From Nitrospinia bacterium (lineage in GTDB: Bacteria; Nitrospinota; Nitrospinia; Nitrospinales; JAJDAT01), in contig JAJDAT010000049.1 of assembly GCA_029261715.1 (NCBI GenBank), positions 372,001 to 436,000 of the forward strand: DNA of 64,000 nucleotides. Direction: 5' to 3'. Numbering within the stretch: the stretch's first letter is position 1; each line of letters begins with the position of its first letter. Below the pieces are notes generated by a model, which ran no database searches, was not told the origin of the DNA, and saw nothing but the letters and a program-made list of their open reading frames with translations. Shown here in pieces: positions 7,021 through 13,226 of the stretch. The position numbers and the translations under genes are program-made.

Positions 7021-8484
7021 TCAGCTAATAAATATTTCAGTTTTTCCCGTGATTAAATCAATTTTTAGAATTCGATGATTATTTGTATCGGAGACATAAA
7101 GAGAATTTCCAACTTCAATGACTCCTGCAGGTTCCCACAATTTAGAACAACTGGTATCGTCGCAAACGATATTGGCGGATGCTTGGACAACTGAAACTTC
7201 CTGAGTTTTGAGATCTAAAACTTTTATCTTATCGTTGTAAGAATCTGCAATATATATTTTCCCTTTAGAATAAAACACTCCTAATGGATGTTGAAGTAAA
7301 GCTTCTTTACCGCGACCGTCTTTGTCGCCAAAATCAAACAAGCCCGTTCCAATGTATGTTGCGATAAAACCTGCTTTATCGATTCGGACACTTCTAATAG
7401 CGCTGGTTTCGCTATCGGCCAAAAATAATTTGTCTTCTCCATAGCTTAAGCCGCTTGGTTGAGCGAATGCTCCCTCTGTTCGAAGGCCGTTTAGAAGAGC
7501 TTCTTGTCCAGTTCCAGCAAACCTCGAAACGATTTTTTGTTTAAGATCAAGGGCTCCAATTTGATGAGTCCCAGCATTTGCAAAATAAAGCTGGTCTCCA
7601 ACTAATTGAACGTCCCAGGGAGAACTAAGAGCCGCTGAAGTCGCAATTGACTGTCCTTGTAATGGCGTTCCTTGGATTCCCGTTCCTGCGATTGTTGATA
7701 CAGTTTCTATTTTTAAATTTATATGCCGTATTAAATGATTTTCAGTGTCTGCTATCCAAATGATTCCATTTTCATAATGCAATCCTTGAGGGCGAAAGAA
7801 CTCAGATTCTTTAAAACTTCCATCTTTTTTCCCTATATTTCCGGTTCCTATTCTATGGATGATTTTACCTTGCCGGTTTGTGATGACAATTTGGTTATGG
7901 TTCGAATCGGCAATAGCAAACTCGTTATCCTCAGGGCTATAAGAAATTTTTCCGGGAAACTTTAAAGATCCTCCTGTTTGATTTTTTTCAGGAGGTTTTA
8001 ATAGATCTGCGGCATTCCCTTCTAGAGCTCCTTTCTTTTCGAAATCCTCCAGCAACTGTGTCATTGTCATTTCTAGCATTTTAGGATCAGGTTCACCAGG
8101 TAATTGACCAAGAATATAACCGTCTGGAGAAATAAATATCAATGTTGGCCAAGCGCGGACTGCATATTGTTTCCAGATAGAAAAATCTGCGTCATGCACA
8201 ATTGGATGTTCAATTTCATATCTTTCGATAGCTTTACGAACATTATCCGTATTTTTTTCACCCGGAAACTTAGGGCTATGAACTCCAATCACAGCTAAAG
8301 ATTTTGGGAATCGTTTTTCCAAATTTTTTAAAGTAGGGATGATATGAATGCAGTTTATACAACAAAAGGTCCAAAAATCGAGTATGGTCACTTTTCCTTT
8401 TAGGTCTGGTAAATCTAGCGGTTTGTGAACGTTGAACCAAGGTAAATTATCGGCATTTAGAGCCGGGGCGTGGACCGTTTCCAT
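7021..8484 (-). CDS. Thioredoxin-like / NHL-repeat protein (NHLRC2-like)
   Basis: 487 aa. Residues 1 to about 150 are a thioredoxin-like domain opening PDLKGKVTILDFWTFCCINC, with the CxxC pair Cys42-Cys45. Residues from about 165 are NHL beta-propeller repeats (recurring FxxPxGL and IADxxNHxI patterns). This matches the architecture of the NHLRC2 family. No signal peptide is evident, so it is probably cytosolic. The family's substrate is unknown in bacteria; a redox or scaffold role is an inference. It faces the Lcl_C gene across a 361-bp divergent intergenic region. Confidence 0.88.
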   Translation of the reverse strand: METVHAPALNADNLPWFNVHKPLDLPDLKGKVTILDFWTFCCINCIHIIPTLKNLEKRFPKSLAVIGVHSPKFPGEKNTDNVRKAIERYEIEHPIVHDADFSIWKQYAVRAWPTLIFISPDGYILGQLPGEPDPKMLEMTMTQLLEDFEKKGALEGNAADLLKPPEKNQTGGSLKFPGKISYSPEDNEFAIADSNHNQIVITNRQGKIIHRIGTGNIGKKDGSFKESEFFRPQGLHYENGIIWIADTENHLIRHINLKIETVSTIAGTGIQGTPLQGQSIATSAALSSPWDVQLVGDQLYFANAGTHQIGALDLKQKIVSRFAGTGQEALLNGLRTEGAFAQPSGLSYGEDKLFLADSETSAIRSVRIDKAGFIATYIGTGLFDFGDKDGRGKEALLQHPLGVFYSKGKIYIADSYNDKIKVLDLKTQEVSVVQASANIVCDDTSCSKLWEPAGVIEVGNSLYVSDTNNHRILKIDLITGKTEIFIS

Positions 8485-8845
8485 GATCTTTTGTTTGGGT
8501 AAAATATTAAAAATATTGAGAGAATTCTTGCGGCGATTGTAAACCGAGCGAAATTAATAAGGCAAATTTGTTTTATCTATAAACTTTTAAATGAAAATAT
8601 CAAGTTTGCCAGAAAGTCATTATCGAAGTTAAAAATTATATAGAGTAATAGTCGAAAATTATTTCTTTGAATAATCGTTTCTTACCTTATAAGCCTTTCT
8701 GTATAATAGATTAAATAGCAAGTTTTGATTTATAGGGAAAGCTGAAGTTTGTGCTTTTAAAGACTTAACAAATTTCATTTTACTTTGCTATTAAGTCGAA
8801 TATAAGTCGATTGCCTTACTGTTGGCGATTATTTTTGGGGGAGAT
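8485..8845. promoter_or_regulatory. Divergent intergenic region with a candidate -10 box
   Basis: 361 bp of AT-rich sequence between two divergent genes. It holds a perfect TATAAT at 8702-8707 on the plus strand, but the matching -35 region is poor. No RNA gene or convincing small ORF was seen. The promoter for the exported-protein cluster at 8.8-12.5 kb presumably lies here. Confidence 0.35.
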
Positions 8846-9340
8846 ATGGTGGCAAGGGCGTTTTTAATATTAGCTTGGCTCATTCTTTGTTCTGGGCAAC
8901 TCGCCATTGCGGGTTCGATACAAGGTCGTTTTATTGATAATCAAAATGGTACGGTTTCTGATTCAAAAACCGGCCTTATGTGGCAAAAAGAAGATTCTTA
9001 TCACGACATAAAATCAGGTTTAAATTGGTATGACGCTTTGGACTATGCAGAGCAAAAGAATAGCCAAAAATTTGCTGGTTATTCAAATTGGAGGCTCCCT
9101 ACAATGACTGAAATAAAAGCTATTTGGGACTCGAATTTACCAAATTTAAGCAAAGACGAAGAGCATATTGGTCTGTCAAAACAGTTCACGGGTAATGGAA
9201 GTTATTACTTGTGGGCAAGCAATGAAAGAGGTTTGGATTTTGCCTGGTATTTTGGTTTAGGTCAGGCTGAAGATTATTTTAACTTAAAAGATTCGAGTGA
9301 TTTGGGTCAGGGCGCTAAATTAGTTCGAAACGAAAAATAA
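8846..9340 (+). CDS. Exported Lcl_C-domain (DUF1566) protein
   Basis: 164 aa from the ATG at 8846. That start has a strong GGGGGAG ribosome site; an in-frame TTG at 8822 has none. A signal peptide (MVARAFLILAWLILCSGQLA) is followed by one Lcl_C/DUF1566 domain: GRFIDNQNGTVSDSKTGLMWQ, then the W.A..YAE segment and the signature YSNWRLPTMTEI. This domain is common in secreted and surface proteins, and its function is not defined here. It is the first gene of a tight cluster with the two heme proteins downstream. Confidence 0.8.
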   Translation: MVARAFLILAWLILCSGQLAIAGSIQGRFIDNQNGTVSDSKTGLMWQKEDSYHDIKSGLNWYDALDYAEQKNSQKFAGYSNWRLPTMTEIKAIWDSNLPNLSKDEEHIGLSKQFTGNGSYYLWASNERGLDFAWYFGLGQAEDYFNLKDSSDLGQGAKLVRNEK

Positions 9341-9397: not shown

Positions 9398-11119
9398 ATG
9401 AGTCCTTCGAAGTCCTTAATGTTTTCTAATAACAATGGGAAAACATGGTTCTGGGTAGTAGTTTTTTGTTCTTTGTATTTGGTTCAACCCAAATTGGTTT
9501 TGAGTCATAGTCAGGAAGAAAAGAAACACGACTTGGAGAATTTAACTCCAAAACCTGAGGGAATGATTCAATTTGATAAAGATAGCAATCCGGGCGATGA
9601 GTACCTAAAAGAAAAGTCTAAAGACATTCCTTTCCGAACGATGGGCGCTCACGATATGATGGGCGAGGATATGGGGAAGAGTCAACTTTCTCCTGGTAAA
9701 GCTTTATTAGCCAGAGGCAAAGCGATTTATATGCATATGTGTGTGTTTTGCCACGGGAAGGATGGAAATGGAGGCGGTCCTGCAATGAGTTTTTTATATC
9801 CTTGGCCGCGTGATTTTAGATCTGGGATATTTAAATTTCGTTCGACTCCAACAGGTACTTTGCCGCGCGATGAAGACATTTATCGGACAATTATCAGAGG
9901 TATTCCTGGAACTTCTATGCCTAATTGGTCGGCGGCTCTTTCTCCTCAAGATACCTGGGCTTTGGTAAATATGATCAAAAGTTTCTCTCCAAGGTTTAAG
10001 TCTCAAGCTCAAGGGAAAGCGCTTAGCGTCACAGAACCCCCTCCCGCTTCATCAGAATCTATTACGCGGGGACAAGATTTATTCTTGAAGCATAAATGCA
10101 CAAACTGCCATGGCAAATCAGGAACGGGTGATGGGAAATTAGCCGAATCCCTGATGGATGCTTGGAAGCATGCTGTATTTGTTCATGATATTACTAACCC
10201 AGCATATTTAAAAGCTGGTCATGACGCAAAGTCTATTTTTCGCACTCTTTCTACAGGTTTGGATGGGACCCCTATGGAATCATATGCTCATCTTCCTGAA
10301 AAAGATCGCTGGGATTTAACAAACTTTATACGTTCTCGATTTTCTAATGAGCCGAATAATGCAGCGTTTGAAACGGATGTGTATTCTAAAAAAGTTAATT
10401 TCGAATTAGATACAGAAGTTGATAGTCCTGCTTGGGAAGGAGTTCAATCCACAGATATTGTTTTACGTCCACTTTCTGCAAGACGTGGCGCTGTTGAAAC
10501 GATTAACTTTTCTTCGATTAATAATGGAGAGCAACTTGCGGTCCGTTTAAGGTGGAAAGACCCCACTCCCGACGAGGATCAGACATTAGGCGATCAATAT
10601 TTAGATCAAGGAGCAATGCAATTTGCTCTTGGTTCCGTAACATTGCACACTCACGGTCATAACGAACCTTTTTGGGGAATGGGTAACCGTGGAAAGCCGG
10701 TAAATATTTGGCATTGGCGCTCGGGTTTAGAAAAAGCTTTAGAAAAAGCGGAAGATGAAGAATATCATGGGGATGTTGATATGGACGCTCTGATTTTTGG
10801 AGGTCAATATTCAAGCCCTGCTGCGGCTTTGAATAGGCCTAAAGAAACTGCTGTTACAGAGTTAAATGCTGAAGGGTTTGGTACGGTTACTCCTCAGCCT
10901 GCAGACAACCAGCACGTTATTGGGTCTGGGCAATGGAAGGATGGAGAATGGACAGTCGTTTTTTTACGAGATTTGATCCCTTTAGGTAAATGGGATATTA
11001 ATTTAACCAGAAAAGATCCCATCTTAGTTGCGTTTGCAGTTTGGGATGGATTGAAAGAAGACAGAAACGGTCGTAAAGTAGTTAGTGTATGGCAACGTTT
11101 GAATATCTTGGATAAATAA
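9398..11119 (+). CDS. Exported diheme cytochrome c with ethylbenzene-dehydrogenase-type heme b domain (NxrC-like)
   Basis: 573 aa. N-terminal hydrophobic signal (about residues 16-36). There are two cytochrome c domains, with heme motifs C115VFCH119 and C234TNCH238, each followed by a candidate distal Met region (GTSMPNW, GTPMESY). From about residue 325 comes an EB_dh domain (gamma subunits of type II DMSO-reductase-family enzymes such as EbdC and DdhC). Its hallmarks are FWGMGNRGKPVNIWHW (Met428 likely heme b ligand), WKDGEWTVVFLRDL and AFAVWDG followed by GRK (Lys560 likely ligand). Cytochrome c/EB_dh fusions are among the candidate NxrC subunits proposed for nitrite oxidisers. No alpha or beta subunit is adjacent, so the partner is unknown. 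AGAGGTAG precedes the ATG. Confidence 0.9.
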   Translation: MSPSKSLMFSNNNGKTWFWVVVFCSLYLVQPKLVLSHSQEEKKHDLENLTPKPEGMIQFDKDSNPGDEYLKEKSKDIPFRTMGAHDMMGEDMGKSQLSPGKALLARGKAIYMHMCVFCHGKDGNGGGPAMSFLYPWPRDFRSGIFKFRSTPTGTLPRDEDIYRTIIRGIPGTSMPNWSAALSPQDTWALVNMIKSFSPRFKSQAQGKALSVTEPPPASSESITRGQDLFLKHKCTNCHGKSGTGDGKLAESLMDAWKHAVFVHDITNPAYLKAGHDAKSIFRTLSTGLDGTPMESYAHLPEKDRWDLTNFIRSRFSNEPNNAAFETDVYSKKVNFELDTEVDSPAWEGVQSTDIVLRPLSARRGAVETINFSSINNGEQLAVRLRWKDPTPDEDQTLGDQYLDQGAMQFALGSVTLHTHGHNEPFWGMGNRGKPVNIWHWRSGLEKALEKAEDEEYHGDVDMDALIFGGQYSSPAAALNRPKETAVTELNAEGFGTVTPQPADNQHVIGSGQWKDGEWTVVFLRDLIPLGKWDINLTRKDPILVAFAVWDGLKEDRNGRKVVSVWQRLNILDK

Positions 11120-11122
11120 CCA

Positions 11123-12457
11123 GTGGATTGTTTTTTGATCCAAAAGAACTCCGAGGCCAAAAACCAAGATTTTTTGAAGGTCTTGATTTTTGGTCTTTTT
11201 TGTTTCTTAGGGGTGAATGGAGAAAAAAACGCTTTTGCGGATGAAGCAAAAGGTTTAGAAGAAGTCGCCCGATTATTGAAGTTTCACCAGCCGATATTAC
11301 CAAGTCAACCTCCACCTGATCGCTTTGAAAAACAAGTTTCATTATTTCCTGGTTCTGAACCGGTGTTGTTTTCGATTCCAGGTTTTCAGTCTTTTGGTTG
11401 CGGAAAATGCCATAAGCCTGAAACGCTAATTGAAAATGCGGGCAAAAGAATGACTGGATTAATCATCCGATTGAGGAAGGTGTTGCCTCAAGTTGGAGAA
11501 GTTCCACTTCGTCAATATATTTTACAAACTTATGCCAGTCCTCTACTTCGAGCTAATCAATTTGCTCATGCAACGTTTGATACGATTAGATTGTTTCCGA
11601 GAACAGTTATTATTGACGAGGAGATATTTAACCAAGAGACTCAGTTCCATGAAATTCTTCATTTAACTCAACCTTTTATTGGTCATCCCAATGAGCTAGA
11701 AGCTTATGGATTAAATATTCGCTCTGATCCTCGTTTTTTATTCCTAAACTTTCCTTATTTTGAAAATGTTTTTAAGGGGTTTTTTAAAACTGAATTTGGG
11801 AATATGTTGAATCGATTTTATGGACGCGATCTTAGAAATATTAAAGAGGTACCTCAACAAATCCTTCAGTTTAGTAAGCCTTTTGAACCTGAAACTTTGG
11901 AAACTGTTGCAAAGGCAATTAAAAGAATGGAACCTGTTCTTGATGAAGCATCGGTAATTATTCGCCAATACCCTTTAGAATCCGCCTATTTCAGCGAGCA
12001 AACTGGAGTGAGGTCTTTAATGCTTGATTTAGCGGCAGTTCGAACTTTAAACTTACCAGCAATAAAATCGTCTAAAAAAATCGTCAGAAGAGCTTTTGAA
12101 CTATTAAACCAACAGTTTGATAAGACTGACAATACTAGTTTAGGGTATGTTATTGATCGGAAAAGTGAGGCATTAACGATTCTAAAATATGACAGTAAAG
12201 TAAACGATGGTATCGAACGTTTGTCTTTATATTTTCATTTTTTAAAGGATCGATTTTTTTCTGAAAACGGAGAGCTTAATTTAACTCCGGCAGATACGGA
12301 AGATTTTAATAATTATGTATCCAGGAAGTTAGAAAATATTGCAAAAATGTTAAAAGCGGATGGGATTACGGAAATTGAAATCGACGCTGGTAGGAAAATA
12401 ATTCTTTCAATAAAAAAAGAACTCCAAGCGAAAAAGGAAGCGCTTGGAGTTCAATAA
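11123..12457 (+). CDS. Exported one-heme protein with an HExxH metalloprotease-like motif
   Basis: 444 aa with a GTG start only 3 bp after the cytochrome gene, so probably translationally coupled. A signal-like helix (KVLIFGLFCFLGV) comes first. One c-type heme motif lies at C93GKCH97. A segment QFHEILHLTQPF follows, with H176-E-x-x-H180, and GHPNELEAY supplies candidate third ligands (Glu191, Glu193), as in gluzincin-type metallopeptidases. The rest is mostly helical and ends in a Lys-rich tail. No family recognised. It may process or mature its neighbour, or be a redox protein with a relic metal site; neither is shown. The final codons double as a terminator for nuoB on the other strand. 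Confidence 0.75.
   Translation: MDCFLIQKNSEAKNQDFLKVLIFGLFCFLGVNGEKNAFADEAKGLEEVARLLKFHQPILPSQPPPDRFEKQVSLFPGSEPVLFSIPGFQSFGCGKCHKPETLIENAGKRMTGLIIRLRKVLPQVGEVPLRQYILQTYASPLLRANQFAHATFDTIRLFPRTVIIDEEIFNQETQFHEILHLTQPFIGHPNELEAYGLNIRSDPRFLFLNFPYFENVFKGFFKTEFGNMLNRFYGRDLRNIKEVPQQILQFSKPFEPETLETVAKAIKRMEPVLDEASVIIRQYPLESAYFSEQTGVRSLMLDLAAVRTLNLPAIKSSKKIVRRAFELLNQQFDKTDNTSLGYVIDRKSEALTILKYDSKVNDGIERLSLYFHFLKDRFFSENGELNLTPADTEDFNNYVSRKLENIAKMLKADGITEIEIDAGRKIILSIKKELQAKKEALGVQ
12410..12452 (-). terminator. Intrinsic terminator for nuoB, inside the end of the convergent gene
   Basis: A perfect 12-bp inverted repeat pairs 12419-12430 with 12441-12452 around a 10-nt loop. Read on the minus strand it is followed by TTTTTTTATT, a standard U-tract. 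It lies within the last codons of the plus-strand heme/HExxH gene, 37 bp past the nuoB stop. Confidence 0.85.
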
Positions 12458-12488: not shown

Positions 12489-13019
12489 TTATATATTGGC
12501 AGCAGGCGTGATCATCGCCGGACCTTTAACATGGTCGGCTAAAGTTTCATTTTGTACTTTGTCTTGTAATTTAATTAGAGCGTCAATTACCATTTCTGGT
12601 CGTGGTGGACAACCCGGGATATAAACATCCACAGGAATCAGAGTATCAATTCCCATAACCGTGGAATAGTTATCATAGAATCCACCCGAAACTGTACAAA
12701 CTCCATAGGCTACAACCCATTTAGGTTCAGCCATTTGATTGTAAACTTTTGTCAAAATGGGAGCTTGTTTATGACTAATAGTTCCAACAACCATTAGCAA
12801 ATCTGCCTGTCGAGGTGAAAATCGCGGGAAAGCGGCTCCAAACCGATCTAGATCGTATCGAGGCCCTGCCACAGACATAAACTCCATACCGCAACAAGCG
12901 GTAATAAACGGATAAATAAAGAAAGAATATTTTCTCGCCCAGTTAATGGCTTGAGTCATTTGAGTAACAATGACATTATTCCCTAAGCTCATTTCTAGGT
13001 CAGATCGAGCGCCAGCCAT
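12489..13019 (-). CDS. nuoB: NADH-quinone oxidoreductase subunit B (solitary)
   Basis: 176 aa from the ATG at 13019, which has AGGAG six bases upstream; an in-frame TTG two codons earlier lacks a proper site. It carries the full set of cluster N2 cysteines (TACCGMEF, YGVCTVSGG, PGCPPRPE) and the RYDLDRFG and SHKQAP motifs of the complex I / group 4 hydrogenase small subunit. It passes electrons from the Fe-S chain to quinone in the peripheral arm. Unusually, no other nuo gene is adjacent; it stands alone with its own terminator. It could be a displaced or second-copy subunit. Confidence 0.93.
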   Translation of the reverse strand: MAGARSDLEMSLGNNVIVTQMTQAINWARKYSFFIYPFITACCGMEFMSVAGPRYDLDRFGAAFPRFSPRQADLLMVVGTISHKQAPILTKVYNQMAEPKWVVAYGVCTVSGGFYDNYSTVMGIDTLIPVDVYIPGCPPRPEMVIDALIKLQDKVQNETLADHVKGPAMITPAANI

Positions 13020-13226
13020 GCACAACTCCTTTTTATATAAATGGTGACTCTATAACGATTTTAGTATATCATCATAGAAAGATTTCAAAAAAAAATCAAA
13101 CAATAACTTTGAATCGGTAACAATAATTCTGGCGATTTAAAGTTATTTTATTTTGTAAGAGCTTTGAGTTTATTGGTCAGTTTTTTTATTGTGCTTAGTT
13201 TTAGAATTTTTAGGAGAATTTAATTT

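Follow-up and report, generated by a model that had tools for sequence, protein, structure and literature searches.

A predicted periplasmic protein of the Nitrospinales that combines a heme c motif with an invariant HExxH motif and is usually encoded beside an alternative NxrC cytochrome

Introduction

In the gluzincins, metallopeptidases of clan MA(E) such as M1 and M4, a strand is followed by a helix, a loop and a further helix; HExxH lies on the first of these helices, and the other has a Glu set in N-E-x-x-A. In the aspzincins (M35), the third ligand lies about 10 residues past HExxH. The motif also occurs in PflC and PosC, two enzymes of RiPP pathways that were identified as alpha-ketoglutarate-dependent HExxH iron enzymes with a zincin-reminiscent fold (PMC12636437).

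The Nitrospinales are an order of marine nitrite-oxidising bacteria. According to one study, no known nitrite oxidisers are more abundant in the oceans than the Nitrospinae (PMC8026999). In 2013, it was still an open question which subunits truly make up their nitrite oxidoreductase (NXR) system (PMC3578206). A cytochrome of Nitrospina gracilis composed of two c hemes and an EB_dh domain was termed 'alternative NxrC' in the same study (Luecker et al., 2013). In the anammox organism Kuenenia, NXR has an accessory subunit that bears a heme, NXR-T (Kustd1705): a bundle of four helices whose heme lies close to the C terminus and has a distal Met (PMC8387239).

This work concerns a 444-aa protein of a Nitrospinia bacterium, encoded in a window of 64,000 nucleotides (positions 372,001 to 436,000 of contig JAJDAT010000049.1), the whole stretch of DNA that was analysed. 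A search of one paper library found no description of a peptidase-type protein that joins heme c with HExxH. The heme half and the HExxH half are each of a known kind.

The gene, its product and its neighbours

The original prediction placed C93GKCH97, H176EILH180, E191 and E193 within a single ORF, and all these positions proved exact (Table 1). GTG is given as the start codon in the ORF list, although the true start is uncertain, as the DNA ahead of it shows no clear ribosome-binding site. The protein had also been taken as exported; by inspection, its N terminus, with a hydrophobic stretch at about aa 19-32 followed by AFA-DEA, fits this claim, and export is probable.

Table 1. Positions in the window of the features discussed in the text.
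Feature	Position	Strand	Basis
Heme c / HExxH protein gene, 444 aa, predicted exported	11123..12457	+	ORF; Nitrospinales-only family; AlphaFold pLDDT 91.8
Probable signal peptide, likely cleavage after A39	11123..11239	+	Sequence inspection; similar hydrophobic N termini in homologues
H55, invariant; candidate distal heme ligand	11285..11287	+	Alignment; role inferred
C93GKCH97, motif for heme c attachment, with C93, C96 and H97 invariant and the two residues between the cysteines variable	11399..11413	+	Sequence, alignment
Invariant H149, which may be the distal heme ligand or belong to the active site	11567..11569	+	Alignment; role inferred
H176EILH180; H176, E177, H180 invariant; helix 172-180	11648..11662	+	AlphaFold model, alignment
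N190-E191-L-E-A194-Y195, where helix 188-201 begins; includes the invariant E191, a candidate third metal ligand	11690..11707	+	Model, alignment; ligand role inferred
Cytochrome of 'alternative NxrC' type with two c hemes and an EB_dh (heme b) domain, directly upstream	9398..11119	+	Pfam; linkage; type name from PMC3578206
Lcl_C-domain protein; linked to cytochrome even where HExxH gene is not	8822..9340	+	PF07603; locus comparison

Besides two CxxCH domains, the product of the upstream gene has an EB_dh domain (PF09459, E=8e-28). The label of diheme cytochrome that it had received was correct as to the two c hemes but incomplete, as it omitted the EB_dh domain. The stop codon of the cytochrome gene (11117-11119) stands 3 bp ahead of the GTG at 11123, which confirms the predicted spacing and suggests that the HExxH gene is usually co-transcribed with the alternative NxrC gene.

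The conserved gene order is Lcl_C, cytochrome, HExxH gene, a nuoB-like gene on the opposite strand and an LRR gene. The cytochrome gene lies directly upstream of the HExxH gene in 45 of the 48 loci with room upstream. The exceptions fall in two genera (g3 and g5), where the cytochrome gene and its Lcl_C neighbour stay together elsewhere and the HExxH gene lies apart; both genera keep both genes despite the lost linkage. An orthologous cytochrome (identity at least 57%) is encoded by 52 of the 55 genomes with the HExxH gene, and in the remaining three the HExxH gene is near a contig edge. Genome G005 has the cytochrome with no HExxH gene detected. Since linked genes vanish together from incomplete assemblies, this co-occurrence was not counted as independent statistics. 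The proposal that the protein is a maturation or partner factor of the cytochrome is thus supported as to linkage, but a dedicated maturation role is not established, because two genera hold the genes at separate places.

On the opposite strand, a gene for a thioredoxin-like and NHL-repeat protein (7021-8484) is divergent beside the Lcl_C-cytochrome genes, a position that is kept in some relatives. The nuoB-like gene (12489-13025, minus strand; recognised by inspection), between the HExxH gene and the LRR gene, is about 82-93% identical in relatives, a conservation far above that of its neighbours.

Distribution and conservation of the family

Of 64 Nitrospinales genomes, 55 have a member of the family, as a single copy, and none was found in 13 further genomes of the Nitrospinota. 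Among the nine Nitrospinales genomes in which no copy was detected, six are less than 90% complete, and therefore true absence is not claimed for these nine. Relatives came almost all from records named Nitrospina, Nitrospinaceae or Nitrospinota; the contig scan that retrieved them used two exact motif patterns, which distant relatives in other phyla could escape, and Nitrospirota and anammox genomes were left out of the family survey. A plasmid search gave no match. A single match was located in a MAG labelled Alphaproteobacteria (L076, JAJFIL010000216.1), on a contig of 4.2 kb whose gene order is that of the Nitrospinales; being one among 398 genomes of that MAG's phylum, it was treated as probable contamination.

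Conservation was assessed in 50 distinct full-length homologues, with a median pairwise identity of 49% (range 38-97%). The alignment has 387 core positions, of which only 43 do not vary in this set; C93, C96, H97, H176, E177, H180 and E191 are all among these 43, for which the chance probability is about 1.3e-7. None of these full-length homologues lacks either motif, the outcome of a check that had been set beforehand, and the co-conservation of a heme c motif and HExxH in one polypeptide is strongly supported by the alignment. Two downstream glutamates had been put forward with the HExxH motif: E191 is invariant, whereas E193 is present in 49 of 50 homologues and is, as judged from the alignment, dispensable in the family. 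H188 is variable. The remaining invariant residues cluster at aa 131-213 and 331-349, which suggests that these segments belong to an active-site region.

The heme motif

The middle residues of CxxCH vary freely among the homologues, and no other cysteine is conserved. This pattern is that of heme c sites, unlike that of most thiol redox CxxC motifs. The conserved CxxCH is accompanied by cytochrome c maturation genes in the host, as expected of a c-type cytochrome: CcmE and heme-lyase family genes were found in the host genome and ResB was not, so that maturation is assigned to System I. Candidates for the sixth ligand of the heme are H55 and H149, both invariant; no Met is invariant among the 50 homologues. 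The 444-aa protein matches neither the cytochrome c domain (PF00034, PF13442) nor the EB_dh domain of the upstream gene product.

Structure model and searches

An AlphaFold model built with 29 homologues reached a mean pLDDT of 91.8 and a pTM of 0.86. Its N-terminal half has strands at 67-72 and 81-86, then the CxxCH motif, a helix at 99-120 and strands at 131-134, 148-151 and 154-157. HExxH and E191 follow on the successive helices 172-180 and 188-201, and the C-terminal half is almost wholly helical. A model had been proposed as a check of whether these residues converge on a metal site; the helix layout is as expected at the level of secondary structure, and the ligands may converge. The motif segment alone (aa 124-240) gave a pLDDT of 50, with no predicted folding. 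In the full model, the layout of the motifs resembles that of gluzincins with a shorter spacer, and points to a putative metal site.

Foldseek searches gave no significant match in the PDB (best E 0.52, a non-peptidase) or among viral models, and zincin membership is therefore not claimed. Two M1-type peptidases appeared at noise level (E 1.8 and 3.5, TM about 0.2), and such scattered metallopeptidases were rejected as evidence. Neither the protein nor the family alignment, used as query, gave anything above noise in Pfam, NCBIfam or PDB sequences. Weak matches around CxxCH, to peroxiredoxin 5 (E 0.24) and, in 5 of 29 members, to Thioredoxin_6 (best E 0.005), were judged insignificant, no thioredoxin fold being present among the structural matches listed. 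By these searches, the 444-aa protein is unlike any curated family and any sequence or fold of a solved structure.

Comparison with described systems

The likeness to gluzincins consists of an HExxH on a helix, invariant in 50 of 50 homologues, and of E191, an unvarying Glu within N-E-x-x-A that lies on the helix after it and may serve as third ligand. The Nitrospinales protein differs from them in having a CxxCH motif and no Pfam or significant fold match to them, and H180 and E191 are separated by 10 residues, versus about 18 in the HExxH-x18-E spacing of M1 and M4 peptidases. The third-ligand spacing is instead like that of aspzincins, but the residue is Glu and not Asp, the GTxxDxxYG motif is absent and there is no sequence match to this group.

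Like the alpha-ketoglutarate-dependent iron enzymes, the protein has an HExxH of the sort formerly taken for a peptidase motif (PMC12636437); it differs from them in its probable export, the heme c motif in its chain and the lack of a RiPP context, and it matched none of the NCBIfam families, including the HExxH peptide-modification ones. With mono-heme c-type cytochromes it shares probable export, a CxxCH with variable middle residues and a host with Ccm genes, but it has a large body with a second metal motif, and neither a cytochrome c domain nor an invariant Met. NXR-T is likewise a heme c accessory protein in a nitrite oxidoreductase context; identity with it was rejected in view of the position of the heme motif (aa 93 of 444), the strands of the N-terminal half and the lack of an invariant Met.

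Proposed function and alternatives

The best explanation, held tentatively, is a periplasmic heme c protein with a gluzincin-like centre, acting as a metallohydrolase or peptidase beside the electron transfer of alternative NxrC and NXR. One heme c would be attached covalently at C93xxCH97, near the N terminus, by the System I Ccm machinery. H176, H180 and E191 would ligate a metal within a largely helical body, with E177 as the general base for hydrolysis of a presumed substrate. This activity would be coupled to the heme or localised by it, and the protein would work beside its likely partner, the co-encoded alternative NxrC cytochrome, e.g. in its processing, assembly or quality control. 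In favour of this explanation are the invariance of both motifs, the gene linkage, the Ccm genes and the helix layout of the model; against it count the missing fold and sequence matches, the motif segment that is not predicted to fold by itself, and the cytochrome genes that lie elsewhere in g3 and g5. A bolder proposal, possible but doubtful, is that of a new family in which the heme and the gluzincin-like site are functionally coupled, either as a redox-controlled periplasmic peptidase or as a heme-fed two-metal redox enzyme, dedicated to nitrite-oxidising electron transfer. The protein would be categorically new if such a coupling of heme and metal centres were true.

By analogy with the oxygenase precedent (PMC12636437), an invariant HExxH does not in itself establish hydrolysis. 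The main rival to a metallohydrolase, somewhat unlikely yet serious, is that HExxH and the Glu bind iron and form a non-hydrolytic redox centre, for oxygenase or nitrogen-oxide/oxygen chemistry, with heme c as the electron-transfer partner. HExxH non-heme iron enzymes that depend on alpha-ketoglutarate and have a zincin-reminiscent fold are known, and a heme on the same polypeptide together with a neighbouring redox partner fits a redox role; against this stand the missing NCBIfam and structural matches, the absence of a RiPP-type context and the apparent periplasmic site, where alpha-ketoglutarate is not expected. It is unlikely that the protein is an assembly or docking subunit of alternative NxrC/NXR, loosely NXR-T-like, with a heme and a metal that are only structural or for electron transfer. 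Docking would not require an invariant E177, and the C-terminal heme and distal Met of the four-helix NXR-T contrast with an N-terminal motif and no invariant Met here, even though Kuenenia offers a precedent (PMC8387239) and the gene is linked to that of alternative NxrC.

Two further alternatives concern the motifs themselves. CxxCH might be a thiol or metal motif at the start of a helix and bind no heme, which we regard as quite improbable. Its place in the model, after strand 81-86 and ahead of helix 99-120, and the weak peroxiredoxin 5 and Thioredoxin_6 resemblance would agree with this, and 19.2% of the CXXCH proteins in the dataset of one study were not heme-bound (PMC12026499); the variable middle residues, the invariant H97, the Ccm system of the host and the lack of a thioredoxin fold among the structural matches listed argue for heme. 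Accidental pairing of two short motifs in an ordinary exported protein does occur elsewhere, as with the HEHGH of a paralogous diheme cytochrome on contig C47, but for the 444-aa protein it is refuted by the 50 distinct homologues, none of which differs at any of the seven residues, and its probability is negligible.

As a single-copy protein found order-wide, with both motifs invariant and its gene usually behind that of alternative NxrC, it constitutes a testable candidate for a missing NXR component.

NXR and related cytochromes in the host genome

Two 5' ends of nxrA were identified at contig ends of the host genome (G000:C47:178324-178539 and G000:C32:2-253); over about 70 aa, they share 93% and 98.5% identity with the NxrA encoded in the complete genome of a relative. 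The host is therefore considered a nitrite oxidiser whose NXR copies were broken by assembly. The cut-off ends fit NXR operons that are duplicated and were left unresolved in the assembly. Five EB_dh proteins are encoded in the genome. Three of these also carry c-type heme motifs: two have a pair of CxxCH, and the third has three. Their loci (9398-11119 of the window, G000:C47:133685-135085 and G000:C25:543301-543858) represent several alternative NxrC candidates. The paralogous diheme/EB_dh cytochrome on contig C47 (L127 8467-10110), whose HEHGH is probably accidental, has no HExxH-protein partner gene and is followed by an NHL-repeat gene.
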